From positions 1 to 45,401 of the forward strand of contig CALEDR010000029.1 in NCBI GenBank assembly GCA_937949545.1: 45,401 nt of DNA, written 5' to 3'. Positions 576 to 42,267 of the stretch are shown here, in pieces (position 1 is the stretch's first letter; each line of letters begins with the position of its first letter). Made by a program: the position numbers and the translations under genes. The DNA comes from an uncultured Phycisphaerae bacterium. Its GTDB lineage: Bacteria; Planctomycetota; Phycisphaerae; Sedimentisphaerales; Anaerohalosphaeraceae. Under the pieces are notes generated by a model that ran no database searches, was not told the DNA's origin, and saw nothing but the letters and a program-made list of their open reading frames with translations.

Positions 576-2201
576 TTACGCATGGCTGAAAAGCTGAATC
601 GCTCGTTCAATCCGTTTCCTTGTCCGCTCCAGCCCCAGAAGATTGACCGCATCAAAAATAGGCGGACTAATCGTCGTTCCTGTAATTGCCACCCGAAGCG
701 GCTGGGCGACCTTGCCCAGACCGACCTGCGTTTCCTCCGCCAGATTCCGCAACATTACTTCCAGCGATTCGGCCGTAAACTCTTTCAGCTGCTCAAGCCG
801 CTGAGCAATCGTTCTCAGAATATCGGCCGCCCCTTCTTTCTGCAACACCTTTTTGACCGCTTCCGGGTCATAGACAACCGCCTCGTCCGGGATAAAAGCA
901 AAGCGGCACTTTTCCTCAATCTGAGCCAGCGTCCGAGCGCCTTCATTAATCCGAATCAGATGCTCCAGCATCGCATCATCCGCCGCCGCCACTGGTGAGC
1001 CGGTCGCCTCCAGAAACACCCGAAAATGACGCACCAGCGTCTTCAGCGGCACCCGTTTGATGTGTTCCGTATTGAATGCCAGCAGCTTCTTCCGGTCAAA
1101 CAGACTGTTGGACTTGTTCAGGCGGCTCAGGTCAAAGGCCTCAATCAGTTCCTGACGGTCCATAATCTCCTGTCTGCCGGCCGGGCTCCATCCGAGCAGG
1201 GCCAGGAAATTGACCATCGTTTCCGGAAGATAGCCGCTCTTGAGGAAATCCACCACATTAATTTCCGGCAGATGCACGCCGAGAAACGCCGCCATGGCAT
1301 CAATGGCCGGCACATCCGGCATTTTCTCCCCTGCCAAAAACAAATCCAGCTCCTGTCGGCTCAGGCCGGCGGCCTTGGCCAACGCGTCCAAATCAACCCC
1401 TTTTTTCTCCTGAATTGCTTTTCGGAGGGCCTCGGGTCTTTCCCGTTTGGACAGTTTTCCTCCGCTTTCGCTGACGGTAACGGACATATGCAGGTATGCC
1501 GGTGTTCGAAAGCCCAGCGCCCGCTGGAGCAGAAGATGATTCGGGGTATTCATCAGGTGCTCCTGCCCTCGAATGACATGCGTGACCCCCATCAGCTCAT
1601 CATCCACCACCACCGCCAGATGATAGGTCGGGAAACCGTCTGATTTTAAGATGACAAAATCCCCGATTTCTGCCGGATTGAACACCACATCCCCCCGGAG
1701 TAAATCCTGAACCACAATCGGCTCCGTCTCGGTCACAGCCAGACGCACCGTAACGGGTCGCCCCTGGGCTTGTGCTTTTCGGGCCTCTTCCGGCTCCGGG
1801 AAATGCGCCGGCCGCGGATACAAAAAGACCTGCTTTTTGGCCTCGGCCTCTCGACGAAGCCGTTCAATCTCCTCCGGGGTATCAAAGCAATAATAGGCCT
1901 TCTTTTCTTCTATCAGTTTGAGGACATAATGCTGATAAATCTCCAGCCGCTGCGACTGAAAATAGGGCCCGTTCGGCCCCCCGACTTCCGGCCCCTCATC
2001 CCAATCAATCCCCAGCCAGCGTAAATCCGCCAAAACCTGCTGGGTCGCCGTGGGCGTATTGCGCTTCAGGTCGGTATCCTCGATGCGCAGCAGAAACCTG
2101 CCGCCGCTTTTGCGGGCCAAAAGCCAGTTAAACAGCGCCGTGCGGGCTCCGCCGATATGCAGATACCCCGTCGGCGAAGGAGCAAACCGTGTTACAATCA
2201 T
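576..2201 (-). CDS. gltX: Glutamyl-tRNA synthetase with an extra insertion after the KLSKR loop
   Basis: A class I aminoacyl-tRNA synthetase that charges tRNA-Glu in the cytoplasm. The HIGH-type motif is HIGG at residues 15-18 (PSPTGYLHIGGART) and the KMSKS-type motif is KLSKR at 249-253. The anticodon-binding C-terminal half is present (GYLPETMVNFLALLGWSP at 323-340 leads into it). At 541 residues it is longer than the usual 470-500. The extra is about 60 residues (256-316) between KLSKR and DFLKSGYLPE, including ALAKAAGLSRQELDLFLAGE and AAFLGVHLPE, which read like a small helix-turn-helix fold. The ATG has GAGGG 6 nt upstream. It is divergent from glnS across 213 bp. Confidence 0.97.
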   Translation of the reverse strand: MIVTRFAPSPTGYLHIGGARTALFNWLLARKSGGRFLLRIEDTDLKRNTPTATQQVLADLRWLGIDWDEGPEVGGPNGPYFQSQRLEIYQHYVLKLIEEKKAYYCFDTPEEIERLRREAEAKKQVFLYPRPAHFPEPEEARKAQAQGRPVTVRLAVTETEPIVVQDLLRGDVVFNPAEIGDFVILKSDGFPTYHLAVVVDDELMGVTHVIRGQEHLMNTPNHLLLQRALGFRTPAYLHMSVTVSESGGKLSKRERPEALRKAIQEKKGVDLDALAKAAGLSRQELDLFLAGEKMPDVPAIDAMAAFLGVHLPEINVVDFLKSGYLPETMVNFLALLGWSPAGRQEIMDRQELIEAFDLSRLNKSNSLFDRKKLLAFNTEHIKRVPLKTLVRHFRVFLEATGSPVAAADDAMLEHLIRINEGARTLAQIEEKCRFAFIPDEAVVYDPEAVKKVLQKEGAADILRTIAQRLEQLKEFTAESLEVMLRNLAEETQVGLGKVAQPLRVAITGTTISPPIFDAVNLLGLERTRKRIERAIQLFSHA

Positions 2202-2414
2202 AAAACCCTCACATAAGTTCCGGAAAACCCGACAAGATAGGTCAATCTCTCGGCAAAGTCAAGAAGTCTCTGTTCGGCAATGAAAACACTTGATGCCGAA
2301 CCCAATTTCTGAAACTTTTTATTGAAAATGCCGAAAGATAGTTTAGTTTATCCTTCTATTAGTCAAAGTAATAGAATAAAAAGCCAATAACAGGATACAA
2401 TAAATCGCAAAACT

Positions 2415-4121
<1,707 letters not shown>

Positions 4122-6772: not shown

Positions 6773-7822
6773 ATGCGATTGTCCAGACGGGATTTTCTCA
6801 AAATCGCTGGTGCAGCAGGCATCACTTCGGTTCTTCCGCTCGACCTCATCCAAAAAGCCATGGCCGGCAGCGGAGACCCTCGTGTCATCTGGCTTCAGGG
6901 ACAAAGCTGCAGCGGCTGCAGTGTCTCCCTGCTCAACAGCGTAAAAACAACAACGATTGATGACATTCTCCTGAATAAAATCAACCTCGAATACCATTCC
7001 ACCCTTATCGCAGCCGCAGGAGACCTGGCGATAAAGGGTGCCTTGGGGCCGCATCCGAATTTGACGGAACTGGGCGCATTTGAAAATCAGTGGCTGATGG
7101 AAGGAACTGAGCTGAAATTTGACCTGGATAAAGACGGGCGAGTCAACCTGGTTGATTTCAACGCCCTCTGCAGGCAGGGTTATATTTTGGTCGTGGAAGG
7201 CTCCATTCCTGCAGAAGACGCTGCTTGTCCCGTGAAATTTTGTGATATCGGCGGTCACCTTTCTATGGAGGAGGCATTCAGCATCCTCAGCCAAAAAGCC
7301 GACAAAATCATCGCCCTCGGAACCTGTGCCTGCTACGGCGGCATCCCTCACGCAGTTCCAAATCCAACAGGGGCCAAAGGCGTATCAGACAAACTGATTG
7401 AACTGGGATACAGTAAACCCCTAATCAATATCCCCGGCTGCCCGGCACATCCGGACTGGTTCGTGCTGACCCTGCTGAAGGTGCTGGCCGGTCAAACAGT
7501 AACTCTCGACAGCAAAGGACGTCCGGCAGAGTTATTCGGAGACTCCAGCAGCCAGAAAGTACACGCAAAATGTCTGTTTCATCCCTCCCGCTGGCCTGGA
7601 ACGGAGCCGCCGAAGGCCGAAACTCTCGGCGATTACGGCTGTCTGGAAACCCTCGGCTGCAAGGGCAAAAACACCTGGTCAAACTGCCCTGTCCTGAAAT
7701 GGAACAGCGGCAGCCCAGGCCAAAACGGTGTCAATTGGTGCGTCGAAGCTCGAACTCCGTGCTGCGGCTGCGTTGAACCGGATTTTCCGGACGGAAAGAC
7801 CCCCTTTATTACAGGGTCTTAA
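6773..7822 (+). CDS. [NiFe] hydrogenase small subunit (Tat-exported, Fe-S) with an EF-hand-like insertion
   Basis: The electron-transfer subunit of a periplasmic [NiFe] hydrogenase. Residues 4-13 are a twin-arginine signal (SRRDFLKIAG). Proximal-cluster ligands are C46, C49, C185 and C223. Distal ligands are H264, C267, C290 and C296. Medial ligands are C305, C330 and C333, plus C323 in NWC where three-iron enzymes have NWP. Between AAAGDLAIKGAL and GYILVVEGSIP, where relatives are short, about 45 residues are inserted; they contain a perfect calcium-loop pattern at 117-128 (D-x-D-x-D-G-x-V-N-x-x-D). There is no C-terminal membrane anchor. It is first in a unit with the large subunit (43 nt gap) and a maturation protease. 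Group 1 is likely by layout; the subgroup is not determined. Confidence 0.95.
   Translation: MRLSRRDFLKIAGAAGITSVLPLDLIQKAMAGSGDPRVIWLQGQSCSGCSVSLLNSVKTTTIDDILLNKINLEYHSTLIAAAGDLAIKGALGPHPNLTELGAFENQWLMEGTELKFDLDKDGRVNLVDFNALCRQGYILVVEGSIPAEDAACPVKFCDIGGHLSMEEAFSILSQKADKIIALGTCACYGGIPHAVPNPTGAKGVSDKLIELGYSKPLINIPGCPAHPDWFVLTLLKVLAGQTVTLDSKGRPAELFGDSSSQKVHAKCLFHPSRWPGTEPPKAETLGDYGCLETLGCKGKNTWSNCPVLKWNSGSPGQNGVNWCVEARTPCCGCVEPDFPDGKTPFITGS
7121..7156 (+). other. EF-hand/dockerin-type loop inside the hydrogenase small subunit
   Basis: Codons 117-128 encode DLDKDGRVNLVD. Asp occupies calcium positions 1, 3, 5 and 12, Gly is at 6 and Val at 8. This is the dockerin form of the loop and closely resembles the tail of the LamG protein at 38967 (YDLNGDCIVNLGDL). 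It is a direct sequence observation; calcium binding is inferred. Confidence 0.7.
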
Positions 7823-7865: not shown

Positions 7866-9161
7866 ATGGCGACAACCTTTACAATAGACCCTGTTACGCG
7901 AATCGAAGGACATTTGAAAATTGAAGTGACGGTGGATACCGTCGATAACCAACAGCAGGTTGTCAATGCCAGGAGCTGCGGAGTGATGTTCCGGGGTTTC
8001 GAGAAAATCCTCATCAATCATGATGCATTCGACGCCCCGATTATTTCTCAGCGAATCTGCGGTGTCTGTCCGGTTTCCCACGCGACGGCAAGCTGTCTGT
8101 CCCTCGAAAACGCTTTCGGAGCGACTCCTCCGGCCAATGGACGCATCCTGAGAAACCTCATACTCGGTGCCAACTATATCCAGTCGCACATCCTGCATTT
8201 TTATCACCTGGCCGCCATGGATTATATCAACACGCAGGGCATCCTGGACATGGCCCCTTGGACTCCACGATTCATTACTCCGGATATGATCTCCGGTTCT
8301 TTGGCCCAAACACTTGTCAGTCATTATGTTCAAGCCCTTGCCATCCGTCGAAAAGTCCATCAAATGGGAGCCCTGTTCGGGGGCAAACTGCCGCATCCGG
8401 CCAGTTTCATGCCGGGCGGATGTCTGGATGTGCCCTCTACAGAGAAGCCAGCGGCCTTTCGGGTTTTGCTGGATGAAATCAAACAATTTATTGATACGGT
8501 CTTTGTTCCGGACACCCAGGCATTAAAAGACCTCTTTCCCCAGTATTCAGAAATCGGACGCGGATGCGGAAAACTGCTCGCCTACGGTGTTTTTGACCTG
8601 AATGATGCGGGCACTTCAAAACTGCTGGCTCGGGGCAGATACAACGGAACCTCCATTGAACCGCTCGACCCGGCCGTCATTGCGGAAGACGTCAAATACT
8701 CCTGGTTCAGCAGTCCCAGCGGCCTGAATCCTTCCGTTGGAGAAACCGAAGCCGACCGTTATAAAGAAGGAGCTTACTCCTGGACCAAAGCTCCACGCTA
8801 CAATGGACAGGTTTATGAACTGGGACCGCTGGCAAGGATGTGGGTAAACGGTGATTACCGGAATGGAATCTCCGTCATGGACCGTCTGTTGGCACGAGCG
8901 CTCGAAGCCCAAAAAATTGCGTATGCCATGGACAGTGCCGATCACACCTCGGGCTGGCTGAACGAACTTTCCGTAGGGGCACCCTCTTACTCAAAACCAA
9001 CCATTCCGACAGTCCCAAACCCGCTGAACGGAATCGGTCTGACCGAAGCCCCGCGGGGCGCTTTAGGCCATTGGTCAACCATCAGTGCATACATTCCGGC
9101 CGGAAGCACCACAGCAAAAGGAAAAATTCTGCGATATCAGGTAATTACCCCGACTTCCTGA
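7866..9161 (+). CDS. [NiFe] hydrogenase large subunit, ended early by an in-frame UGA
   Basis: The catalytic subunit that would hold the Ni-Fe(CN)2CO site. The N-terminal half is intact: FTIDPVTRIEGHLKIEV at 5-21 and the first metal motif RICGVC at 63-68 (C65, C68). Translation stops at UGA 9159-9161, codon 432. The next 67 codons remain open in the same frame and encode the missing, well-conserved C-terminus, including the second metal motif. The stop replaces the Trp of the usual PTTWNASPRD stretch (here PTS-stop-NASPRDD), so one G-to-A change (TGG to TGA) explains it. As read here the product lacks two Ni-bridging cysteines and would be inactive. A sequencing error, a recent mutation or read-through are the options. 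Confidence 0.93.
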   Translation: MATTFTIDPVTRIEGHLKIEVTVDTVDNQQQVVNARSCGVMFRGFEKILINHDAFDAPIISQRICGVCPVSHATASCLSLENAFGATPPANGRILRNLILGANYIQSHILHFYHLAAMDYINTQGILDMAPWTPRFITPDMISGSLAQTLVSHYVQALAIRRKVHQMGALFGGKLPHPASFMPGGCLDVPSTEKPAAFRVLLDEIKQFIDTVFVPDTQALKDLFPQYSEIGRGCGKLLAYGVFDLNDAGTSKLLARGRYNGTSIEPLDPAVIAEDVKYSWFSSPSGLNPSVGETEADRYKEGAYSWTKAPRYNGQVYELGPLARMWVNGDYRNGISVMDRLLARALEAQKIAYAMDSADHTSGWLNELSVGAPSYSKPTIPTVPNPLNGIGLTEAPRGALGHWSTISAYIPAGSTTAKGKILRYQVITPTS

Positions 9162-9365: not shown

Positions 9366-9824
9366 ATGGCGGAAAAACCCCGAACGTTAATTCTGGGCAT
9401 CGGCAATATCCTTCTCGGCGATGAAGGAATCGGAGTCCGGGTCATTGAACATCTGCGAAATCGTCCTCTGCCGGATTTCGTCGATATCCTGGACGGCGGC
9501 ACGGCCGGTGCCGACCTGCTTGATACGTTGTGCCGTTATGAGCGGGTGATTCTGATCGATGCACTGGACGGGAACTATCCTCCGGGCACTATCGTGCAGA
9601 TGACACCGGATGAACTGCTGCCGCCGAACCCCTCTGCTTTATCGCTTCACGATTTGGACTTGCCCCAGACTCTGGCGATGGCGAAAATGCTGGGACAGGC
9701 ACCCAAGGAAGTGGTCATCGTTGGAATCCAGCCTGAAAACACGACCTGCACTATGGAACTCAGCCCTCGGCTGAAACATTTACTACCGAATATTGCCAAC
9801 CTCCTTTTGTCTTTGGTGAATTAG
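9366..9824 (+). CDS. Hydrogenase maturation protease (HyaD/HybD family)
   Basis: An endopeptidase that trims the C-terminal tail of the hydrogenase large subunit after nickel insertion. The 152 residues match the family length. GIGNILLGDEGIG at 11-23 contains the conserved Glu that senses nickel, followed by DGGTAGADLL, VILIDALDG and the conserved SLHDLDL. The ATG lies immediately after the stop that ends the complete large-subunit frame, so the three genes form one unit with translation coupled to the full-length large subunit. The gene is intact, which argues that the large subunit was functional until recently or still is. HypA-F factors are not in the window. Confidence 0.94.
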   Translation: MAEKPRTLILGIGNILLGDEGIGVRVIEHLRNRPLPDFVDILDGGTAGADLLDTLCRYERVILIDALDGNYPPGTIVQMTPDELLPPNPSALSLHDLDLPQTLAMAKMLGQAPKEVVIVGIQPENTTCTMELSPRLKHLLPNIANLLLSLVN

Positions 9825-33325: not shown

Positions 33326-35656
33326 TCACAGCATCCCGAACCATTCCGAGGCCAGCATCGCCAAATCCCCGAAATCCACTCGGCAGTCCTGATTCAGGTC
33401 CGCATACGGATACCCCCGCTGTCCGCAGGCATCCGATGTCTGCACGGTCTCGAGGGCCAAACCGACATCAATAAACTGTCCGCCTGTCGTCTGACGGCAA
33501 TGTACGGCGATCAGATTGGACTGGCCGGTCCGCAGGGCTGCCCGAGCCGCCGCGGTGATCGGAAGATAGACATAACTGGTCGTATAATTGGTCGCCGCGG
33601 CCGCTAAAACGCCGTTCAGATACACCTCAGCATCTTCATCGTGATGAATCCGAAGCACAAGACGATTCATCTGCTCCGATGTCAGCGACGGCAGAGAAAA
33701 CGTTCGTCGAATCCAGATATCCGATGTATTCCACACCGTCCCCACTACGGCCCCCGGCGTGCCTGTCGTGCCAAATCCCCCGGGTCCCTGCGACCAGCCG
33801 GAATCATTAAATCCTTCATTCATCCAGCCGGACGCCGGCTGGCTCGTTGTACAGCGCCAGGTCTGAGCTGTTTTTTCCGATGTCGGAACCACGCTTTCAA
33901 AGGAGCGGTTCATTGCATTGGACCGCCGAATCGCCCCCACATCGGCCTTGATGACTTTTCGGTCATACGTAATCAGACCGTTGATTTCCACTTCAACATC
34001 CGTAATCTGGGTATAAACACCGGCACTGAGCCCCAGTTCATCCCGCAGACCGGCCAGCTGCTGAATGTACGCATCATACAGCACAGCCAGCTCCTGGCCC
34101 GTATTGACCATGGTGTAGCCCCAGGAATTGGGATTCCACATATGCCCGTCCACCCGCATGCCGATGCCGCCGTATTCCCCGCAGACACTGGCTCGGGTTT
34201 CGGTCGGCGCCAGCCCGCCGGGGGCCGGGTAGCTGTGCGTATCAATGATGTGTCCGACCGGATGGTCCACCCAGCCGCTGGCATTCGAAACCAGCCGCGA
34301 CGGATCCTGTTCCATCACCTTCTGCGTCAGACGCACCGTATCATACTGGCCCCATCCTTCGTTGAACACAATCCACATAATAATGGACGGATGATTGCCC
34401 AGCTTCTCAACCATCTGCTCCAGCTCCCACTCAAACTGGGTTCGCAGGGCGCCGGACGGTTCACTCCGCATGCTGGGCATATCCTGCCAGACCAGCAGGC
34501 CCATTTTATCCGCCCAGTAATACCAGCGGGCCGGTTCAATCTTCACATGCTTGCGGACCATATTGAAGCCGAAGGCCTTAATCATATCCAAATCCCACTT
34601 CAGCGCCTCGTCCGTCGGAGCCGTATAAAGCCCGTCCGGCCACCAGCCCTGGTCCAGGGGGCCGATCTGGAAGATAAACTTGCCGTTCAGCAGAAGCCGC
34701 TGGACGCCGTTGACCTTTCCGATGCCGACTTTGCGCATTCCAAAATAACTCTGCACCTCATCGAGTACCTGGGAACCCTGTTTAATCCGCACTTTCAGGT
34801 CGTACAGGTACGGGTCGTCCGGCGACCACAGCCGCACATTTCGCAGCCGCAGCTTCAAGTCTTCCCCCGCTGCCCCGCTCACCTGACCGGCTTTCTCGGT
34901 TCCCTGATAGGCAGCGGCTTCCACCGTCAATCCCTGTGCAGAACCGCGGACAAATGCCTTCACCCGCACCAGCTGATTGTCCACGTCCGGCACAATTTTG
35001 ATGCGTTCAATTGATACCTCCGGTACCGGCTCCAGCCAGACCGTCTGCCAGATACCCGTGACCGCCGTGTACCAGATGCCGTTCGGATTCAAATCCTGCT
35101 TGCCGCAGGCAATCGCCTGACTGTTGGTCGGGTCATACACCCGCACAATCAGTTCCTGTGGTCCGCCGGATGTCAAATGCGGAGTAATATCAAAAAAGAA
35201 GGGGTCATACCCGCCGCGATGAATCCCGACCGACGTTCCATTAATGAACACCTCTGCCTCCCAATCCACCGCTCCGAAATGCAGCAGAATCCGGCGTCCC
35301 TGCCAGCCCGACGGCACGGTGAAAGTCCGACGATACCACAGACGCTCATGATGCTCCATCACGCCGGAAATCGCCGATTCCACCGGAAACGGAACCAGAA
35401 TCTCGCCCGAGAGGGTTTGTCCCGCCGGCACCGGGTCTCCTGCATTGCCCGGCTGATACTGCCAGAGCCCGTTCAGATTCATCCAGTCCGAACGAACCAT
35501 CTGCGGACGCGGATACTCCGGCAAAACGGCAGAGGGTTCAACCTGCTGCGCCCACGGAGTCATCAGCGGGGCCTGTTTGAGCGTCCAGGCATGTCCGGCT
35601 GCTCCCAAGAAAGCCAAAAGAAAAATCGACGCCCATCGTACTGAACATTTGCACAT
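33326..35656 (-). CDS. GH2-family glycosidase with C-terminal beta-sandwich and dockerin-like tail
   Basis: A 776-residue exported enzyme; GH2 covers beta-galactosidases, beta-glucuronidases and beta-mannosidases among others. A signal peptide (WASIFLLAFLGAAGHA) is followed by the sugar-binding domain (DWMNLNGLWQYQ, WYRRTFTVP, AEVFINGTSVGIHRGGYDPF). The acid/base E433 is in IVFNEGWGQYDT and the nucleophile E494 in SVCGEYGGIG. A 151-residue module shared with the DUF4965 protein follows. A final dockerin-like tail reads DLNQDCRVDFGDLAMLASEW. The start at MCKCSVRW has AAAGGA 7 nt upstream. It lies 37 nt after GH43. Exact activity is open. Confidence 0.92.
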   Translation of the reverse strand: MCKCSVRWASIFLLAFLGAAGHAWTLKQAPLMTPWAQQVEPSAVLPEYPRPQMVRSDWMNLNGLWQYQPGNAGDPVPAGQTLSGEILVPFPVESAISGVMEHHERLWYRRTFTVPSGWQGRRILLHFGAVDWEAEVFINGTSVGIHRGGYDPFFFDITPHLTSGGPQELIVRVYDPTNSQAIACGKQDLNPNGIWYTAVTGIWQTVWLEPVPEVSIERIKIVPDVDNQLVRVKAFVRGSAQGLTVEAAAYQGTEKAGQVSGAAGEDLKLRLRNVRLWSPDDPYLYDLKVRIKQGSQVLDEVQSYFGMRKVGIGKVNGVQRLLLNGKFIFQIGPLDQGWWPDGLYTAPTDEALKWDLDMIKAFGFNMVRKHVKIEPARWYYWADKMGLLVWQDMPSMRSEPSGALRTQFEWELEQMVEKLGNHPSIIMWIVFNEGWGQYDTVRLTQKVMEQDPSRLVSNASGWVDHPVGHIIDTHSYPAPGGLAPTETRASVCGEYGGIGMRVDGHMWNPNSWGYTMVNTGQELAVLYDAYIQQLAGLRDELGLSAGVYTQITDVEVEINGLITYDRKVIKADVGAIRRSNAMNRSFESVVPTSEKTAQTWRCTTSQPASGWMNEGFNDSGWSQGPGGFGTTGTPGAVVGTVWNTSDIWIRRTFSLPSLTSEQMNRLVLRIHHDEDAEVYLNGVLAAAATNYTTSYVYLPITAAARAALRTGQSNLIAVHCRQTTGGQFIDVGLALETVQTSDACGQRGYPYADLNQDCRVDFGDLAMLASEWFGML
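33440..33892 (-). repeat. C-terminal beta-sandwich-like module, copy 2 (GH2 protein)
   Basis: The partner of the copy at 30647-31096, about 151 residues from VVPTSEKTAQ to LALETVQ. It lies between the GH2 catalytic part and the dockerin-like tail, whereas in the DUF4965 protein the module ends the protein. Confidence 0.7.
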
Positions 35657-35693
35657 TGCTAAATCCTTTCCCATCTGTTACCAATCGGCGGGT

Positions 35694-38600
35694 TTATCGT
35701 CCGCTCAAATTCATACATTCATCAAAGCCGGGAAGTGTGCAGGAAAGCCATCCTTCCGCCAGATAAACCAGATCGTTCATATCCATCACACAATCCAGCG
35801 TAAAGTCAGACACGGCATACCCCAGCGCGCCGCATTCATTATCGAGAACCGTCACAATCACCGGCTCGACCTCCAGTCCGTCATACTCCGGATCCGAGGC
35901 GCTTTCGACAGTCACCGAAAGAGCGATCTCCTGCCGGTCATTTTCCAGTTCATTGTCATCCACCGCCGATACCCAAACCGTCTGCGGCACATTCCAGTCC
36001 AGCGGTGTAAAGGTCAGAGAGACTCTGTTCAGAAGCACTTGCCCCCGCTGCTGCTGTTCAGTCAGATGCACTGTCACAGTTCCGGCAGGCGGATTTTTCA
36101 GAGAGAAGAACAATTGTCCCTGTCCGCCGTTTTCAGGAATCGTCAAGTCCGCCGGTTCTGCAAGGATGCCGGCATACTTGACTTCATAGAAGAGAAACTC
36201 CGATACATCCAGTGCTCGGCTGCAAATGCGAACTTCATCAATCAGGCCGAAAAATCGGTCGGTATGTGTTCCGTTGTACAACCCCCGCGCGACCGACCAG
36301 CCGCCGCCGTGCCAGTCCGCCCCGACCGAATCATCCGCAACCAGCCGTGTATCCGGGCTTCCGGAAGCCGCCAAATCTGTTTCGGCGACCAGCTGATAGC
36401 CGAGCCCGGAGGAGACATCATTCAAATACAGCCGCAGCCGCTGCCCGTCACAGACTGCCGCCATATGGTACCACCGGCCGTCATAGCGTATCAGCCCCGG
36501 CGCCGAAACCGCCTCGTGCCAGTACCCCGAGACATCCGCAAATTTAATGGCGACGGCATCTGCCGGAAGAAGCTGAAAATACAGCGCCGCCAAAGAACCA
36601 TTGACCGTCGCCACATTCCTTCCATCCCGCCCTACAATCGTCCGATATCCGCTGCCGCCGGGCTTAAACGACGCCTCAATCGTAAACGCAAACGGCTCCC
36701 ACGTCTCCAAATCCAGCAGAACATCCGACCGCCCGGTCGAAGAGGTAAACAACCCCGGAAGCGAATCCTCATTCTGAAGACTGAACTGATTGGCTTGCTG
36801 AATCTGCGGAACCTGCGAAGCGGGCACCTCCGTTCGATACACATGACCGGCAAACGCATCCGACCAGCAGGATAAATGATTCCCGTTGCCGGAAGCATCC
36901 AGAACCGCCGGATAAAACGCGCCGTTGGCCAGTCCGCCGTGCGGCACCCGTGCATCCGCAGGGCCTTCCTCAAACCGCCAGCAGGCCATCACGCCGGGCA
37001 TGCCGCGCCGGCTGCACAGAAAATCCTCCGGCGGCAAAGCCGCCTGACTGATGCGCACCTCATCGACATAGCCGTAAGCTCGGTCTGTATGTCCGCCGTT
37101 ATAAAGTCCCCGCCCAACCGACCAGTCGCCCGCATCCCAATCTGCGCCGTCACCGGCGCCGGCCGTCAGGGAGGTATTCGGACTGCCGCTGGCGGCGATG
37201 TTGGTCTGCGCAATCAGCCTGTAGGCCGAATCAACTCCCAGCTGCATCAGATACAGCGACAGGGTCTGACCGTCGCTGACACCGGCCATCGCATACCACG
37301 GGACCCCCGCTCCGTCCGGATTTGTCGAATAATCAAAACCGGTAAAAATATTCGTCGCCGAAACCGTCTGATGCCAGTATCCTGATACATCGCAAAACTT
37401 AAAGGCCAGACGATTATTCGGCGTCGCCTGGAAATATAACGCCGACAACGCGGGCGTACCCGTATTCGTCCCGTAACTGTCACGGCCCACAATCGTCCGA
37501 TATCCGCCATTTTCCAGCTTAAAAACCGCTTCAACTGTGAAGGCCGGCGGCGTCATCGTCCACAGGTCTTGGGCGGAACACCACATCGCCGGTCCGCCGC
37601 CGGTATTCTTCACACTCAGCAGGTTTGAAGCACCCGTCTGGGGAATCGGAGAGACACCGACTTCTGAACGGTAAGCATATCCGCCGCCGCCCCCCGTCTG
37701 CCAGACACTCAGATGGTTTCCTCGCCCCGTCACATCCAAAATATCCGGAGCGTACACTCCCTCGGAAGCTGTATGAACGACAGCACTGCCCGGTGTGCCG
37801 TCCTCAAACTGCCAATATGCTGCCGCCCCCGCATTCTCCTCTACAGTCGGCGCCGGCTGCGGTACACCCCGTGTAGCAATCCCATGCAGAACACCCTGGC
37901 CGTCAAACCACATCGGGTCCAGGCAAATAAAACGATTCCAGCTGATTTCCGTATCCGTTTTCTGATGATAAATATGCCACAGATTGCCGCGGGCATCCTT
38001 CACAATTGCTCCATGTCCCGGGCCGTAAACCCCGCTGCCGCCGGAAAGAATCGGGTTGCCTGCATACTTCGTATACGGCCCCATCGGATTCGCCGCTGTC
38101 GCATATCCGACCGCATAATACGGCGAATCCGCGCCGCTGCCCGAATAGACCAGATAATACATCCCGTTGTGCTTGAGCACCCAGGGCCCTTCCGTGACAG
38201 ACCCCCAGCGCATTTCCCACGACTGCGACGGCTGGAGAATCATCTCCCGAGTGCCCGTCAGCTGCGTTGGACTGGACATTCGCTGCACGTAAATATGCCC
38301 GACATCGCTGAAATACAGATAAAGACTGCCGTCATCATCCTGAAACAGATGGGCGTCAATAAACCCGTTCAGCAGGATGCCCTGATTCACAAACGGCCCT
38401 GCAGGCTTGTCTGACGTCGCCACCCCGATTTTAAAATCCTGCGTATAATAGAGATAAAATTTTCCGTCCGCCTGATTGTAAAAGACATCCGGCGCCCAGA
38501 CATTCACCCCGCCGGGCACAAAAACCTTCGGCCCTTTGCTCCAATGAACCAAATCATGTGAGGTGTAAACATGATAACTGACGTTATCCCCCGTCGGATA

Positions 38601-38765
38601 CAGATAATAGATTCCGTTATAATAAAGGACCGTCGGGTCCGCCGGACCGATTTCCGAGATAATCGGATTGGTGTAGGACACCGCCCCCTGCAGCCCCGCT
38701 GAAAAAATCGAACCCGTCAAAACGATTGCTGTCCACAGGATTTTTTGATTGCTGACTTGAGCCAT
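35694..38765 (-). CDS. GH43 glycosidase with two LamG modules, Calx-beta-like domain and dockerin-like tail
   Basis: A 1023-residue secreted enzyme. After the signal peptide comes a five-bladed propeller: catalytic base D43 (PADPTVLYYNGIYYLYPTG), pKa modulator D137 (FIDAHLFQDDDGSLYLYFS) and acid E192 (VTEGPWVLKHNGMYYLVYSG). GH43 covers arabinofuranosidases, arabinanases, xylosidases and some galactanases. Two LamG/concanavalin-like modules follow (about 314-586 and 595-866). A Calx-beta-like stretch comes next (LTIPENGGQGQLFFSL, FTPLDWNVPQTVWVSAVDD), then a tail DFTLDCVMDMNDLVYLAEGW. GGGAGAAGAG precedes the ATG. It is the first enzyme gene after the LamG genes. Confidence 0.92.
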   Translation of the reverse strand: MAQVSNQKILWTAIVLTGSIFSAGLQGAVSYTNPIISEIGPADPTVLYYNGIYYLYPTGDNVSYHVYTSHDLVHWSKGPKVFVPGGVNVWAPDVFYNQADGKFYLYYTQDFKIGVATSDKPAGPFVNQGILLNGFIDAHLFQDDDGSLYLYFSDVGHIYVQRMSSPTQLTGTREMILQPSQSWEMRWGSVTEGPWVLKHNGMYYLVYSGSGADSPYYAVGYATAANPMGPYTKYAGNPILSGGSGVYGPGHGAIVKDARGNLWHIYHQKTDTEISWNRFICLDPMWFDGQGVLHGIATRGVPQPAPTVEENAGAAAYWQFEDGTPGSAVVHTASEGVYAPDILDVTGRGNHLSVWQTGGGGGYAYRSEVGVSPIPQTGASNLLSVKNTGGGPAMWCSAQDLWTMTPPAFTVEAVFKLENGGYRTIVGRDSYGTNTGTPALSALYFQATPNNRLAFKFCDVSGYWHQTVSATNIFTGFDYSTNPDGAGVPWYAMAGVSDGQTLSLYLMQLGVDSAYRLIAQTNIAASGSPNTSLTAGAGDGADWDAGDWSVGRGLYNGGHTDRAYGYVDEVRISQAALPPEDFLCSRRGMPGVMACWRFEEGPADARVPHGGLANGAFYPAVLDASGNGNHLSCWSDAFAGHVYRTEVPASQVPQIQQANQFSLQNEDSLPGLFTSSTGRSDVLLDLETWEPFAFTIEASFKPGGSGYRTIVGRDGRNVATVNGSLAALYFQLLPADAVAIKFADVSGYWHEAVSAPGLIRYDGRWYHMAAVCDGQRLRLYLNDVSSGLGYQLVAETDLAASGSPDTRLVADDSVGADWHGGGWSVARGLYNGTHTDRFFGLIDEVRICSRALDVSEFLFYEVKYAGILAEPADLTIPENGGQGQLFFSLKNPPAGTVTVHLTEQQQRGQVLLNRVSLTFTPLDWNVPQTVWVSAVDDNELENDRQEIALSVTVESASDPEYDGLEVEPVIVTVLDNECGALGYAVSDFTLDCVMDMNDLVYLAEGWLSCTLPGFDECMNLSGR
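36167..36980 (-). repeat. LamG module, copy 4 (second in GH43)
   Basis: It encodes about 270 residues from MACWRFEEGPADAR to VRICSRALDVSEFLF. It is the most diverged of the four related LamG copies but keeps GGSGYRTIVGRD, ALYFQLLPAD and ARGLYNGTHTDR. Confidence 0.65.
37008..37826 (-). repeat. LamG module, copy 3 (first in GH43)
   Basis: It encodes about 270 residues from AAYWQFEDGTPGSAVVH to ISQAALPPEDFL. It is very close to copy 2 at 40389-41219, at the DNA level as well: both carry GTATGTCCGCCGTT and CCGACCAGTCGCCCGCATCCCA in the same order. Confidence 0.75.
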
Positions 38766-38966: not shown

Positions 38967-41288
38967 TTACAAACAATCCGGATACAGACCGCAATTGAGC
39001 CACTGAGCCGCAATCTGAGCCAGGTCTCCGAGGTTTACAATGCAGTCGCCGTTTAGGTCATACTTGGCATCCGGACGAGCGGAAGTCACGCAGACCGACC
39101 GGCCGGTCGTCAGATTGTAAAGCCCCGCTATCTCCATTTCCGACAGCGGATAGTTATAGAGCTTCACCTCATCGATCTGACCGGCAAAGAAATTCTGATT
39201 CGTCTGTAAAGACCCCATCCGCAAAACCTGCGGTTCGTCCTTGGTACCCAGCGGAGCGCTGCCGGCCGCCTCCAGGGAGCCATCCACATACACCCGAATC
39301 TGACCGGTCTGCGCATCGCGTGTGGCCACGCAGTAATGCCACTGACCGTCATTCACAACTTTTGCGGACTGAACGTTCCCGTAAGCACCGCTGACATCTC
39401 CGACCCCGAAGCAGAACACACTGCCCCGAAGGGCTGTACCAAAATCATTGCGATTGTAGCCGGTCATCTCACCGTCCACCAGACCCTGTCCGTCAAACCA
39501 GCCGTTGCCGACGCCGGCCGTCGAGGTCGTCTTGATCCACATTGCAATCGTCATACCGTTCTGAATGGTCCGCGGAATCTCCACTGCTTCGTCAACCCCG
39601 TTCAGCGAAATGCACTGTCCCTGCACACCGGCTGTATACGTCATCGGCAGCTTGACCGCCGTTCCGTGATAACCGCCGACCGAATCATTCAGATCGTTCT
39701 CAAAGGAATACCAGGCAACCAGCCGCTTGATCTCCAGATAAGCCGGCGAAGAGACCGCTGTGTACGGGCTGCTGTTGCTGACCACACAGTAATAGAATCC
39801 TTCATTCGCCACAGACACGCTGGAAAGCGTCAGCGTCGGACTGCTGCTGCCGACCTGGACATCATCCGCCGGCGTGGAATTGGACTTATCCTGCGACCGG
39901 TACCAGCGGTATGTCGGAGCCGTAACGCTGCTGGCTGTAATCTGGAAGACCGCTGTTCCGCCTGCATCCGCCGTTACACCCGTCGGATGAGCTGTAATCA
40001 CCGGCTGGCTGGGCAGCGACTGAACCGTCCAGGTTCCGCTGATGGGGTTATTGGGGTCCACATTCTTCAGCGTACTGACACCCGGTGTGAACGACTGCTG
40101 ATGGCCGGCCAAAGCCGCTACAACCGCCCACTGATACGTTGCATCAAAATCCCAGAGCATCTGGAACGATGACTCCGGTGTATTCCCCGGGTCAACGCCG
40201 GTCGCCCCGACGTAATAGAGATTCGGGTCCGGAGTCGATACTTTCCGGACGAAAACATACTGATCCGCCACCGCCGGGTTGACCAGATACGGAGAATTCA
40301 GGTCCGGGTCCCGCGGGGCCTTCCATTGCAGCGAGGCTTCGACTTTTCCAAGTCCCAGATTGGCTGTCAGCGACACGGAAGGATCATAAGCACTCGAACC
40401 CATCAGGAAAGCAGACGGCGGAAGAGCAGAAGTTGTAATCCGCACTTCATCAATATAGCCGTATGCCCGGTCCGTATGTCCGCCGTTGTAAAGTCCGCGG
40501 CCCACCGACCAGTCGCCCGCATCCCAGTCCCCGCCGTCACCGGCGCCGGCCGTCAGGGCCGTATTCGGGCTCCCGCTGGCCGTCATATCCGTCTGGGCAA
40601 TGAGCCGATATTGTGTATCAACCCCAAGCTCCATCAGATAGAGGGACAGCGTCTTTCCGTCACTGACGGCCGCCATCGCATACCACGGAACCCCGACGCC
40701 GTCCGGATTCGTCGAGTAATTAAAACCGGTGAAAATATTCGTTTGAGATACGGCCTCATGCCAGTAGCCGGCCACATCGCAGAACTTAATCGCCAGCGCA
40801 TTATTCGGAACCGCCTGGAAATACAGCGCCGCCAGCGCCGCATTGGTTGGGGTACCAGCTGTATTGGTTCCATAACTGTCCCGACCCACAATCGTCCGAT
40901 AGCCGCCGTTTTCCAGTTTGAAAATGGCCTCTACCGTAAACTGAGCGGGCGTCATATACTGCAGCCCAGGGGCCGAACACCACATTGCCGGCCCGCCGCC
41001 GGAGTTCTTCACGCTCAGCAGATTCGCCTCTCCGGTCAGACGAATCTTCGATGTGCCCACTTCGGAGCGGTAGATATATCCGCCGCCTCCGCATGTCTGC
41101 CAGACACACAGATGATTGCCGTTCCCTGACACATCCGGAATATCCGGATAATAAACGCCGTTCGACCCTGTATGAACTACACAAGAGGCCGGCGTTCCGC
41201 CTTCAAACCGCCAATAAGCAACCGTGTTGGCCAGTACAGGCGCACCAACCAAACATAAAATTACCGCTGCCGTCCACACCTTTTTCAT
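38967..41288 (-). CDS. Secreted LamG/Ig-like/LamG protein with dockerin-like tail
   Basis: A 773-residue exported protein with no catalytic motif that I can see. The signal peptide is MKKVWTAAVILCLVGAPVLA, with AGGAGA before the ATG. A LamG module (about 24-300) is nearly the same as the first one in GH43. A linker domain follows (NLGLGKVEASLQWKAP). Then an Ig-like domain (QPVITAHPTGVTADAGGTAV, ending GFYYCVVSNSSPY) and a second, different LamG (AWYSFENDLNDSVGGYHGTA, GNVQSAKVVNDGQWHYCVAT). The tail is YDLNGDCIVNLGDLAQIAAQ then WLNC. A surface or matrix binding protein for glycan is a fair inference. Confidence 0.88.
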   Translation of the reverse strand: MKKVWTAAVILCLVGAPVLANTVAYWRFEGGTPASCVVHTGSNGVYYPDIPDVSGNGNHLCVWQTCGGGGYIYRSEVGTSKIRLTGEANLLSVKNSGGGPAMWCSAPGLQYMTPAQFTVEAIFKLENGGYRTIVGRDSYGTNTAGTPTNAALAALYFQAVPNNALAIKFCDVAGYWHEAVSQTNIFTGFNYSTNPDGVGVPWYAMAAVSDGKTLSLYLMELGVDTQYRLIAQTDMTASGSPNTALTAGAGDGGDWDAGDWSVGRGLYNGGHTDRAYGYIDEVRITTSALPPSAFLMGSSAYDPSVSLTANLGLGKVEASLQWKAPRDPDLNSPYLVNPAVADQYVFVRKVSTPDPNLYYVGATGVDPGNTPESSFQMLWDFDATYQWAVVAALAGHQQSFTPGVSTLKNVDPNNPISGTWTVQSLPSQPVITAHPTGVTADAGGTAVFQITASSVTAPTYRWYRSQDKSNSTPADDVQVGSSSPTLTLSSVSVANEGFYYCVVSNSSPYTAVSSPAYLEIKRLVAWYSFENDLNDSVGGYHGTAVKLPMTYTAGVQGQCISLNGVDEAVEIPRTIQNGMTIAMWIKTTSTAGVGNGWFDGQGLVDGEMTGYNRNDFGTALRGSVFCFGVGDVSGAYGNVQSAKVVNDGQWHYCVATRDAQTGQIRVYVDGSLEAAGSAPLGTKDEPQVLRMGSLQTNQNFFAGQIDEVKLYNYPLSEMEIAGLYNLTTGRSVCVTSARPDAKYDLNGDCIVNLGDLAQIAAQWLNCGLYPDCL
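40389..41219 (-). repeat. LamG module, copy 2 (LamG/Ig protein)
   Basis: It encodes about 275 residues from VAYWRFEGGTPASC to ITTSALPPSAFLMG. It shares long stretches with copy 3, such as GGGPAMWCSA, FKLENGGYRTIVGRDSYGTN and GRGLYNGGHTDRAYGY. Confidence 0.75.
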
Positions 41289-41319
41289 ATCTGTCTCCTG
41301 CAAAACTTTCCGTTTTCCC

Positions 41320-42267
41320 TTACTGCCTGCGGCGAAGCAGTCCCAAAGCACCCAAACCAATCAAAACAATGCTGGCCGGTTCCGGAATCAGAAATTCACT
41401 GACCGACAGAGCCGTATCCGAAATCCGAACCTCATCGAGGAACCCGTACGCCCGGTCCGTATGACCGCCGGCATACATTCCGCGGCCGACCGTCCACGTG
41501 CCGGCAATCCAGTCAGAGCCGCTGCCCTGTCCCATCGTCAGCGCCGTATTCGGACTGCCGCTGGCCGTCATATCCGTCTGAGCAATCAGCTGCCAGCCGG
41601 TGCCGGCCCCAATCTGCAGCAGATACAGCGAAAGCGTCGAACCGTCGCTCACGGCCGCCATGCTGTACCACGGAACACCGATGCCGTCCGGATTCGTGCC
41701 CCAGTCAAATCCCGTAAAAATGTTCGAAGCCGAAACCGCTTCGTGCCAATAGCCCGAAACATCACAGAACTTGATTGCAAGGCCGTTGCCCGGAATCGCC
41801 TGGAAATACAGTGCCGCCAGATCCGGATTCCCCGCATAAGCCCCGCGGCTGTCTCGCCCTACAATCGTCCGCCATCCGCCGTTTTCCAGCTTGAAGGTCG
41901 CCTCAATCGTAAAGGCCGAAGGGGTTATGGTTCGAATTGAATCATCCGGATTTGTAAACAGAGTCGGATATCCGCCGGTGTTCTTGACGGCAAACTGATT
42001 GGGCTGGCCTGTCCGCGGAACATACGAAATCCCTACATCACTCCGATATTGATATCCGGCCCATCCTTCTGCCCACACAGAAAGACCATAGCCGTTGCCG
42101 GAACTGTCGGCTGTTCCTTCATAATAGACACCGTCCGGCAGCCCGCCGTGCGAAACCTGCGCCAGGTCCGGACCTTCCTCAAACCGCCAGTACGCAATAG
42201 TCGATGCCTGAACCGACATCGCCGCAATACACATGAGTCCCAATACTGTAAGAATCCTGCTCTTCAT
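41320..42267 (-). CDS. LamG-domain protein with PEP-CTERM sorting signal
   Basis: A 315-residue exported protein: signal peptide (MKSRILTVLGLMCIAAMSVQA), one LamG module related to those in the next two genes, then a PEP-CTERM signal at the very end (IPEPASIVLIGLGALGLLRRRQ without its last residue is the Pro-Glu-Pro, hydrophobic helix, basic tail layout). PEP-CTERM proteins are processed by exosortase and are usually tied to exopolysaccharide or surface display; no exosortase is in this window. GGAGGAAAG precedes the ATG. It is 31 nt upstream of the LamG/Ig gene and 117 nt downstream of the FecR gene. Confidence 0.92.
   Translation of the reverse strand: MKSRILTVLGLMCIAAMSVQASTIAYWRFEEGPDLAQVSHGGLPDGVYYEGTADSSGNGYGLSVWAEGWAGYQYRSDVGISYVPRTGQPNQFAVKNTGGYPTLFTNPDDSIRTITPSAFTIEATFKLENGGWRTIVGRDSRGAYAGNPDLAALYFQAIPGNGLAIKFCDVSGYWHEAVSASNIFTGFDWGTNPDGIGVPWYSMAAVSDGSTLSLYLLQIGAGTGWQLIAQTDMTASGSPNTALTMGQGSGSDWIAGTWTVGRGMYAGGHTDRAYGFLDEVRISDTALSVSEFLIPEPASIVLIGLGALGLLRRRQ
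41385..42198 (-). repeat. LamG module, copy 1 (PEP-CTERM protein)
   Basis: It encodes about 270 residues from IAYWRFEEGPDLAQVSHGG to DTALSVSEFL. It shares FKLENGG-RTIVGRDS, AIKFCDVSGYWHEAVSA, NIFTGFDWGTNPDG and VGRGMYAGGHTDRAYGFLDE with copies 2 and 3. Confidence 0.75.

Follow-up and report, generated by a model that had tools for sequence, protein, structure and literature searches.

A clade-restricted half-dockerin insertion in the small subunit of a planctomycete [NiFe] hydrogenase

The small subunit of a [NiFe] hydrogenase encoded in the window (the whole stretch of DNA analysed here, 45,401 nucleotides) contains an internal dockerin-type module, the parts of which are listed in Table 1. 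The module is a real domain insertion that is restricted to one clade, and the product is a known enzyme with a half-dockerin, neither a full dockerin nor a demonstrated tether. Its likeness to the tails of secreted proteins, its junction, its clade restriction as searched, the purifying selection on it and its kept ligand positions are computed observations. The reading that we prefer, with a probability of approximately 0.55, is that the half-dockerin entered once and was kept as a calcium-stabilised surface module that is loaded after Tat export. Among the literature matches listed, in a search that lay mostly outside the subscription journals, no title or start of an abstract mentions an insert of dockerin or EF-hand type in the small subunit of a hydrogenase.

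Table 1. Features of the hydrogenase locus and of the inserted module (positions in the window).
Feature	Positions	Strand	Remarks
[NiFe] hydrogenase small subunit	6773..7822	+	349 aa; Tat signal; cluster-ligand cysteines present
Inserted half-dockerin module	7055..7174	+	residues 95-134: helix, linker, calcium loop, helix
First helix of the module, predicted	7061..7102	+	residues 97-110; DSSP of two low-confidence models
12-residue dockerin/EF-type loop DLDKDGRVNLVD	7121..7156	+	residues 117-128
Second helix of the module, predicted	7157..7177	+	residues 129-135 in the first and 126-132 in the second of two low-confidence models; the third strand comes next
Large subunit	7866..9161	+	frame halted by TGA 9159-9161, reads on through DPCLACSVH to the next gene
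HycI-type maturation protease	9366..9824	+	PF01750, 89 bits

The small subunit is recognised by the Pfam models PF01058 (86.7 bits) and PF14720 (57.6 bits) at a cut-off of 27, and its Tat signal is recognised by PF10518 (23.4 bits, cut-off 22.7). Its score on the NCBIfam model TIGR00391 (169.5) is below the cut-off of 179.5; an insert-bearing orthologue (L129:8771-9889) reaches 211.8, and the shortfall of the window protein is therefore not taken as non-membership. C46, C49, C185, C223, H264, C267, C290 and C296 are present, among other Cys and His residues, and their assignment to particular clusters is presumed from the family. The best solved relatives are the periplasmic [NiFeSe] small subunits 2wpn (chain A, E 1.4e-55) and 1cc1, which are alike in domains and Tat signal.

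A comparison with these two structures reveals a major difference in that 47-48 residues lie between residue 88 (or 87) and residue 136 of the window protein, whereas 11 residues in 2wpn_A and 12 in 1cc1_S occupy the same junction, for a net gain of approximately 36 residues. The earlier note, which placed the addition at 7046-7177 (residues 92-135), was thus right about the insertion and about the shortness of the junction in known small subunits, and its estimate of approximately 45 added residues was too high. In the alignment, 38 columns at the junction are absent from insertless planctomycete relatives such as L108. The insert sits before the third strand of the first domain, in what we take to be the turn that links helix 2 to strand 3 in a flavodoxin-like fold, and its GC content (0.50) is near that of the whole gene (0.54). 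The structure models of the whole subunit and of the first domain, each built from 17 rows, have mean pLDDT values of only 50.8 and 52.3, with values below 50 for insert residues 95-124 in both; the helix that follows the loop appears in both of these low-confidence models. A Foldseek search with the second model returned only hydrogenase small subunits among the 50 matches listed, at an rmsd of approximately 10 Å.

The perfect 12-residue dockerin-type loop that had been proposed at residues 117-128 is confirmed, and it fits DxDxDGxxxxxD exactly. In a search with the whole protein, residues 95-134 or 96-132 alone match three unrelated proteins of relatives at 46-49% identity (E 5.9e-5 to 5.5e-4). 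The same holds at the level of the profile A2, which comprises the insert with both junctions (7 rows, 68 columns): the module alone (residues 95-134, columns 17-56) matches unrelated proteins, for example a 1758-residue frame at E 6.8e-11, and it is absent in the insertless relatives. The profile finds many more such proteins. Of 21 loci compared, fifteen follow one pattern, a helix with WL or WM, a linker, the loop and a helix, and six do not; 12 of these 15 segments finish no more than about 25 residues before the stop codon.

A profile of 14 dockerin-type segments, picked by their likeness to the insert, gives the isolated window insert 54.8 bits, compared with a maximum of 14.4 in 5000 shuffles; each insert-bearing subunit of the searched file obtains 33 to 53 bits, and no insertless one is reported. 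Given how these segments were picked, a second profile was made from 17 segments (some repeated) that were picked by the loop motif alone from the Pfam-dockerin loci of the source genome and from the window. With this profile, the window protein scores 18.3 bits (E 6.5e-4 per 10,000 sequences) in a match that covers no more than the loop and second helix. The matches of four of the ten orthologues (L010, L011, L030 and L031) are weak (E 0.2-0.7), and no insertless subunit of the searched file is reported at E values up to 100. The Pfam model Dockerin_1 (PF00404, cut-off 22.9) accepts two of six insert peptides, at 24.9 and 23.0 bits; the window insert peptide, at 16.5 bits, falls below the cut-off, as do three of the five others, and none of four tail peptides from the source order reaches it. 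In the whole window protein, the insert region receives only sub-threshold EF-hand matches from Pfam. Searched against the PDB, the insert profile finds cellulosomal enzymes as its three best matches (E 0.0034-0.0039, including 2mte and 1daq), and the EF-hand protein secretagogin at E 0.15; the three best chains presumably contain dockerins.

The insert shares with type I dockerins (PF00404; 2mte, 1daq) the DxDxDGxxxxxD loop, after which a helix is predicted with low confidence. Type I dockerins have two such calcium loops in tandem, whereas the insert has one and is internal in an enzyme instead of being a tail. No acidic ligand set precedes the first helix in any of the ten inserts, as read by eye. 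Judged from these comparisons, the module corresponds to one and a half dockerin repeats, that is, a calcium loop, its helix and the preceding helix, with the first loop gone; it is the match to one and a half repeats of the tails that makes it a half-dockerin and not a full one. The layout of helix, WL, linker, loop and helix is common to planctomycete secreted tails (L064, L065, L081, and the window proteins at 33326-35674 and 38967-41360, in which the loop and helix are seen), and the hydrogenase module differs in being held at both ends inside a fold.

Three large proteins on the minus strand of the window (33326-35674, 35694-38765 and 38967-41360) end in single-loop dockerin-type tails, the middle one degenerate. 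The resemblance to secreted tails in the same window that the earlier note pointed out hence applies to two of them by motif and not to the degenerate third, and the general relation of the insert to the tails of secreted proteins is borne out by the profile searches. Dockerins outside cellulosomes, to which the insert may be likened, are described for the freshwater planctomycete 'planctosome' (PMC6461901), and a non-cellulosomal cohesin/dockerin system is described for ANME archaea (PMC9012536). The available portions of the two papers deal with peptidases, ABC transporter proteins and scaffold-like proteins and contain no hydrogenase insert.

Of 161 genomes of the source order that were compared with the A2 profile, 11 match it at E <= 1e-10. 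In ten, the match covers columns 1-68, which places the insert inside a small subunit with an identical junction, and the other, G031, matches columns 17-56 only, within a 1758-residue frame. The ten insert-bearing genomes are spread over six genera and three families, and an identical junction in so many lineages indicates that the insert is not a product of chance. Within the source genus, three of six genomes carry it and the other three do not; within the family, it is found in 8 of 39. In wider samples, the insert occurs in 8 of 397 genomes of the class, all from the source order, and in 2 of 392 genomes of the phylum, both from the source genus, with no occurrence outside the order in either sample. 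These order, class and phylum searches scored part of the first-look candidates of each genome, so that isolated misses are possible. A non-exhaustive scan with six peptide patterns, covering one genome per species (84,980), yielded 16 loci, three with the insert, all in Planctomycetota. The restriction to a clade, which the earlier note would count as support, therefore holds in what was searched, where the insert occurs in the source order alone.

Other small subunits of these genomes have no insert: L050 in the source genome (G000), L047 in G027 and L048 in G013. L050 is the second small subunit of the source genome (G000:C2), and CTGD replaces CSGC at its proximal cluster, which we would liken to the Cys3Asp cluster of actinobacterial-type enzymes. 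A plasmid search returned 123 records, each below 60% identity.

The origin of the insert was addressed with two trees. In the first (LG+G4, 36 rows), the insertless L012 falls within the insert-bearing group with a support of 53, which would mean one loss or two gains. In the larger tree, which was computed under a mixture model from 42 small subunits and 241 columns with the insert region excluded, L012 is not within this group; the nine insert-bearing rows form one side of a branch with a support of 91/87 that recurs in 90% of 200 bootstrap trees, and 19 insertless planctomycete rows adjoin them. This tree was made without L030 (broken frame), L025, L027, L028, L029 and L105-L107, which are copies of rows already included, 15 loci without the insert that had been in the first tree (L016, L017, L019, L020, L022, L023, L024, L033, L035, L038, L039, L040, L047, L049 and L051) and L052-L054, which repeat three of the omitted insertless loci. 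The branch of the insert clade is unstarred in the larger tree, so one origin is likely, short of proof, and a single gain is the simplest reading of the tree.

In three of the ten orthologues, the small subunit contains CxxCH, a possible c-type haem site: L031 (G013), L061 (G303) and the second frame of L085 (G022). The loop that bears it is inserted between what are presumably ligands of the distal cluster. Among 65 small-subunit frames scanned, copies included, CxxCH was found in L031 and L061 only, the second frame of L085 lying outside this set; on the larger tree, these two form a sister pair (96/95).

Several residues of the module are conserved. All ten distinct orthologues have D at loop positions 1, 5 and 12 and either D or N at position 3, the helix tryptophan is likewise kept in all ten, and N or Q replaces the usual G of position 6 in four. 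Three pairwise comparisons among three species of the genus give pN/pS values of 0.08-0.13 for the insert and 0.05-0.06 for the remaining mature protein, and the small subunit exhibits no sign of relaxed selection by the same measure. The insert is thus under purifying selection, somewhat weaker than that on the core. These values bear on the view that the insert is a neutral relic, i.e., a recombined tail fragment tolerated without a role at a permissive turn. The length of this turn varies among other small subunits and change is tolerated more readily in the insert than in the core, as expected of such a relic; retention of the ligand positions and the tryptophan across three families and a pN/pS of about 0.1 speak against it, and we regard it as unlikely.

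The preferred reading of a calcium-stabilised module can be set out as follows. A dockerin-type module would have been inserted, most simply once, into the turn that precedes strand 3 in a Tat-exported small subunit. The recipient would have been an ancestor within a single planctomycete order, and the C-terminal tail of a secreted protein from such genomes is the most likely donor. Tat-exported proteins fold in the cytoplasm before export, and cytoplasmic calcium is scarce; given its Tat signal, the small subunit should fold in the cytoplasm and encounter calcium outside. After export, the loop would bind one calcium ion, which would fix the two helices as a small bulge on the surface, and this bulge may close the turn and stiffen that edge of the subunit. 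Several observations speak against this reading: the low pLDDT of the insert, the sub-threshold Pfam score of the window insert peptide, the somewhat faster change of the insert relative to the core, the position of L012 in the first tree, the three insertless genomes of the source genus and the interrupted large subunit of the source genome. Calcium binding by half a dockerin may also be weak. A role as a sorting tail is unlikely, as the module is internal.

The suggestion that a calcium-binding or docking element was built into the subunit is upheld in so far as the element is dockerin-type and probably binds calcium, and it fails for docking to a classical partner. In the docking alternative, the helix faces would bind a partner, either a cohesin-like protein that escaped detection or a redox protein, and so hold the hydrogenase at the cell surface or beside its electron acceptor. 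Dockerins are binding modules, and the insert at its turn is expected to be exposed, presumably so from the flavodoxin-like fold; additionally, one Pfam cohesin is present in G373, and in G303 and G384 the two hydrogenase genes flank a gene for an apparently secreted protein with Fn3-like repeats. However, one of the two dockerin calcium loops is absent, and no Pfam cohesin is found in nine of the ten insert-bearing genomes by a search in which G010 and G037 of the order are positive, although three of the nine are 68-87% complete, so that a miss is possible there. The source genome itself has 12 Dockerin_1 matches and no match to the cohesin model PF00963, both at E <= 0.001. With the first calcium loop missing and no Pfam cohesin found in this genome as well, docking to a classical cohesin is not supported. 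Partner contact via exposed helix faces is possible, and docking as a whole appears possible but doubtful; a structural role of the module is favoured.

The protein between the hydrogenase genes (L129:9923-11338 in G303; L131 at approximately 1860-3586 in G384, split over two frames) begins with an unnamed domain, in addition to its Fn3-like repeats, and looked like a possible cohesin-like partner. It is rejected as a general partner: hhalign gives its first domain a probability of 0.3% against local cohesins (shallow profiles, 5 rows each), the Pfam matches are mainly Ig/Fn3-like with no cohesin, NCBIfam gives none for the G303 copy, and the remaining eight insert-bearing genomes yielded no such protein.

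Two further readings would give the module a part in electron transfer. In one, the half-dockerin was domesticated as a calcium-gated contact for an unknown partner, in some proteins together with CxxCH, and the electron exit would thereby have been rebuilt so as to function only after export from the cytoplasm; this is rather unlikely. In the other, calcium tunes the electron-transfer chain in that the bound ion or its charge shifts a cluster potential. Judging by the fold, the turn that holds the insert, ahead of strand 3, is presumably an edge distant from the proximal cluster, and this argues against such tuning. Redox tuning of a c-type cytochrome by calcium is the subject of a paper on an anammox organism (PMC11791136), which counts in its favour, and the reading remains very improbable.

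The large subunit of the window has NiFeSe models as its best NCBIfam matches, below their cut-offs, and differs from the [NiFeSe] enzymes in having Cys codons, not selenocysteine, at DPCLAC, the first of which, at the nickel site, is TGT. Its in-frame TGA cuts off the last nickel ligands; W is present at this position in L009, L026 and L027 and in the more distant L011 and L012. A selenocysteine reading of the TGA is rejected, since relatives have W and no tRNA-Sec over the cut-off is found in the source genome. The hydrogenase copy may therefore be broken: either an assembly error at 9159-9161 or a hydrogenase disabled in the source strain may account for the TGA.

Among the ten insert-bearing genomes, three (G027, G029 and G373) have a tRNA-Sec over the Rfam cut-off, and the large-subunit ends of L011 and L130 (G373) have Cys at the nickel site. 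In the small subunit L030 (G022), a TGA occurs at the Cys of NLPG-C-PVHPDW, where G013 has TGT; no tRNA-Sec over the cut-off is found in G022, a genome that is 68% complete.

An old and conserved small subunit in which a foreign calcium module has been kept across three families offers a clean natural example of how a domain is domesticated, for which donor-like tails and insertless sister proteins can serve as comparators. The arrangement is unusual and testable in that a module typical of the tails of secreted proteins sits in the middle of an electron-carrying subunit. It also raises the question of the role of dockerin-type tails in planctomycete genomes without a recognisable cohesin. If calcium is needed for stability or for partner contact, the hydrogenase would be competent only after export.
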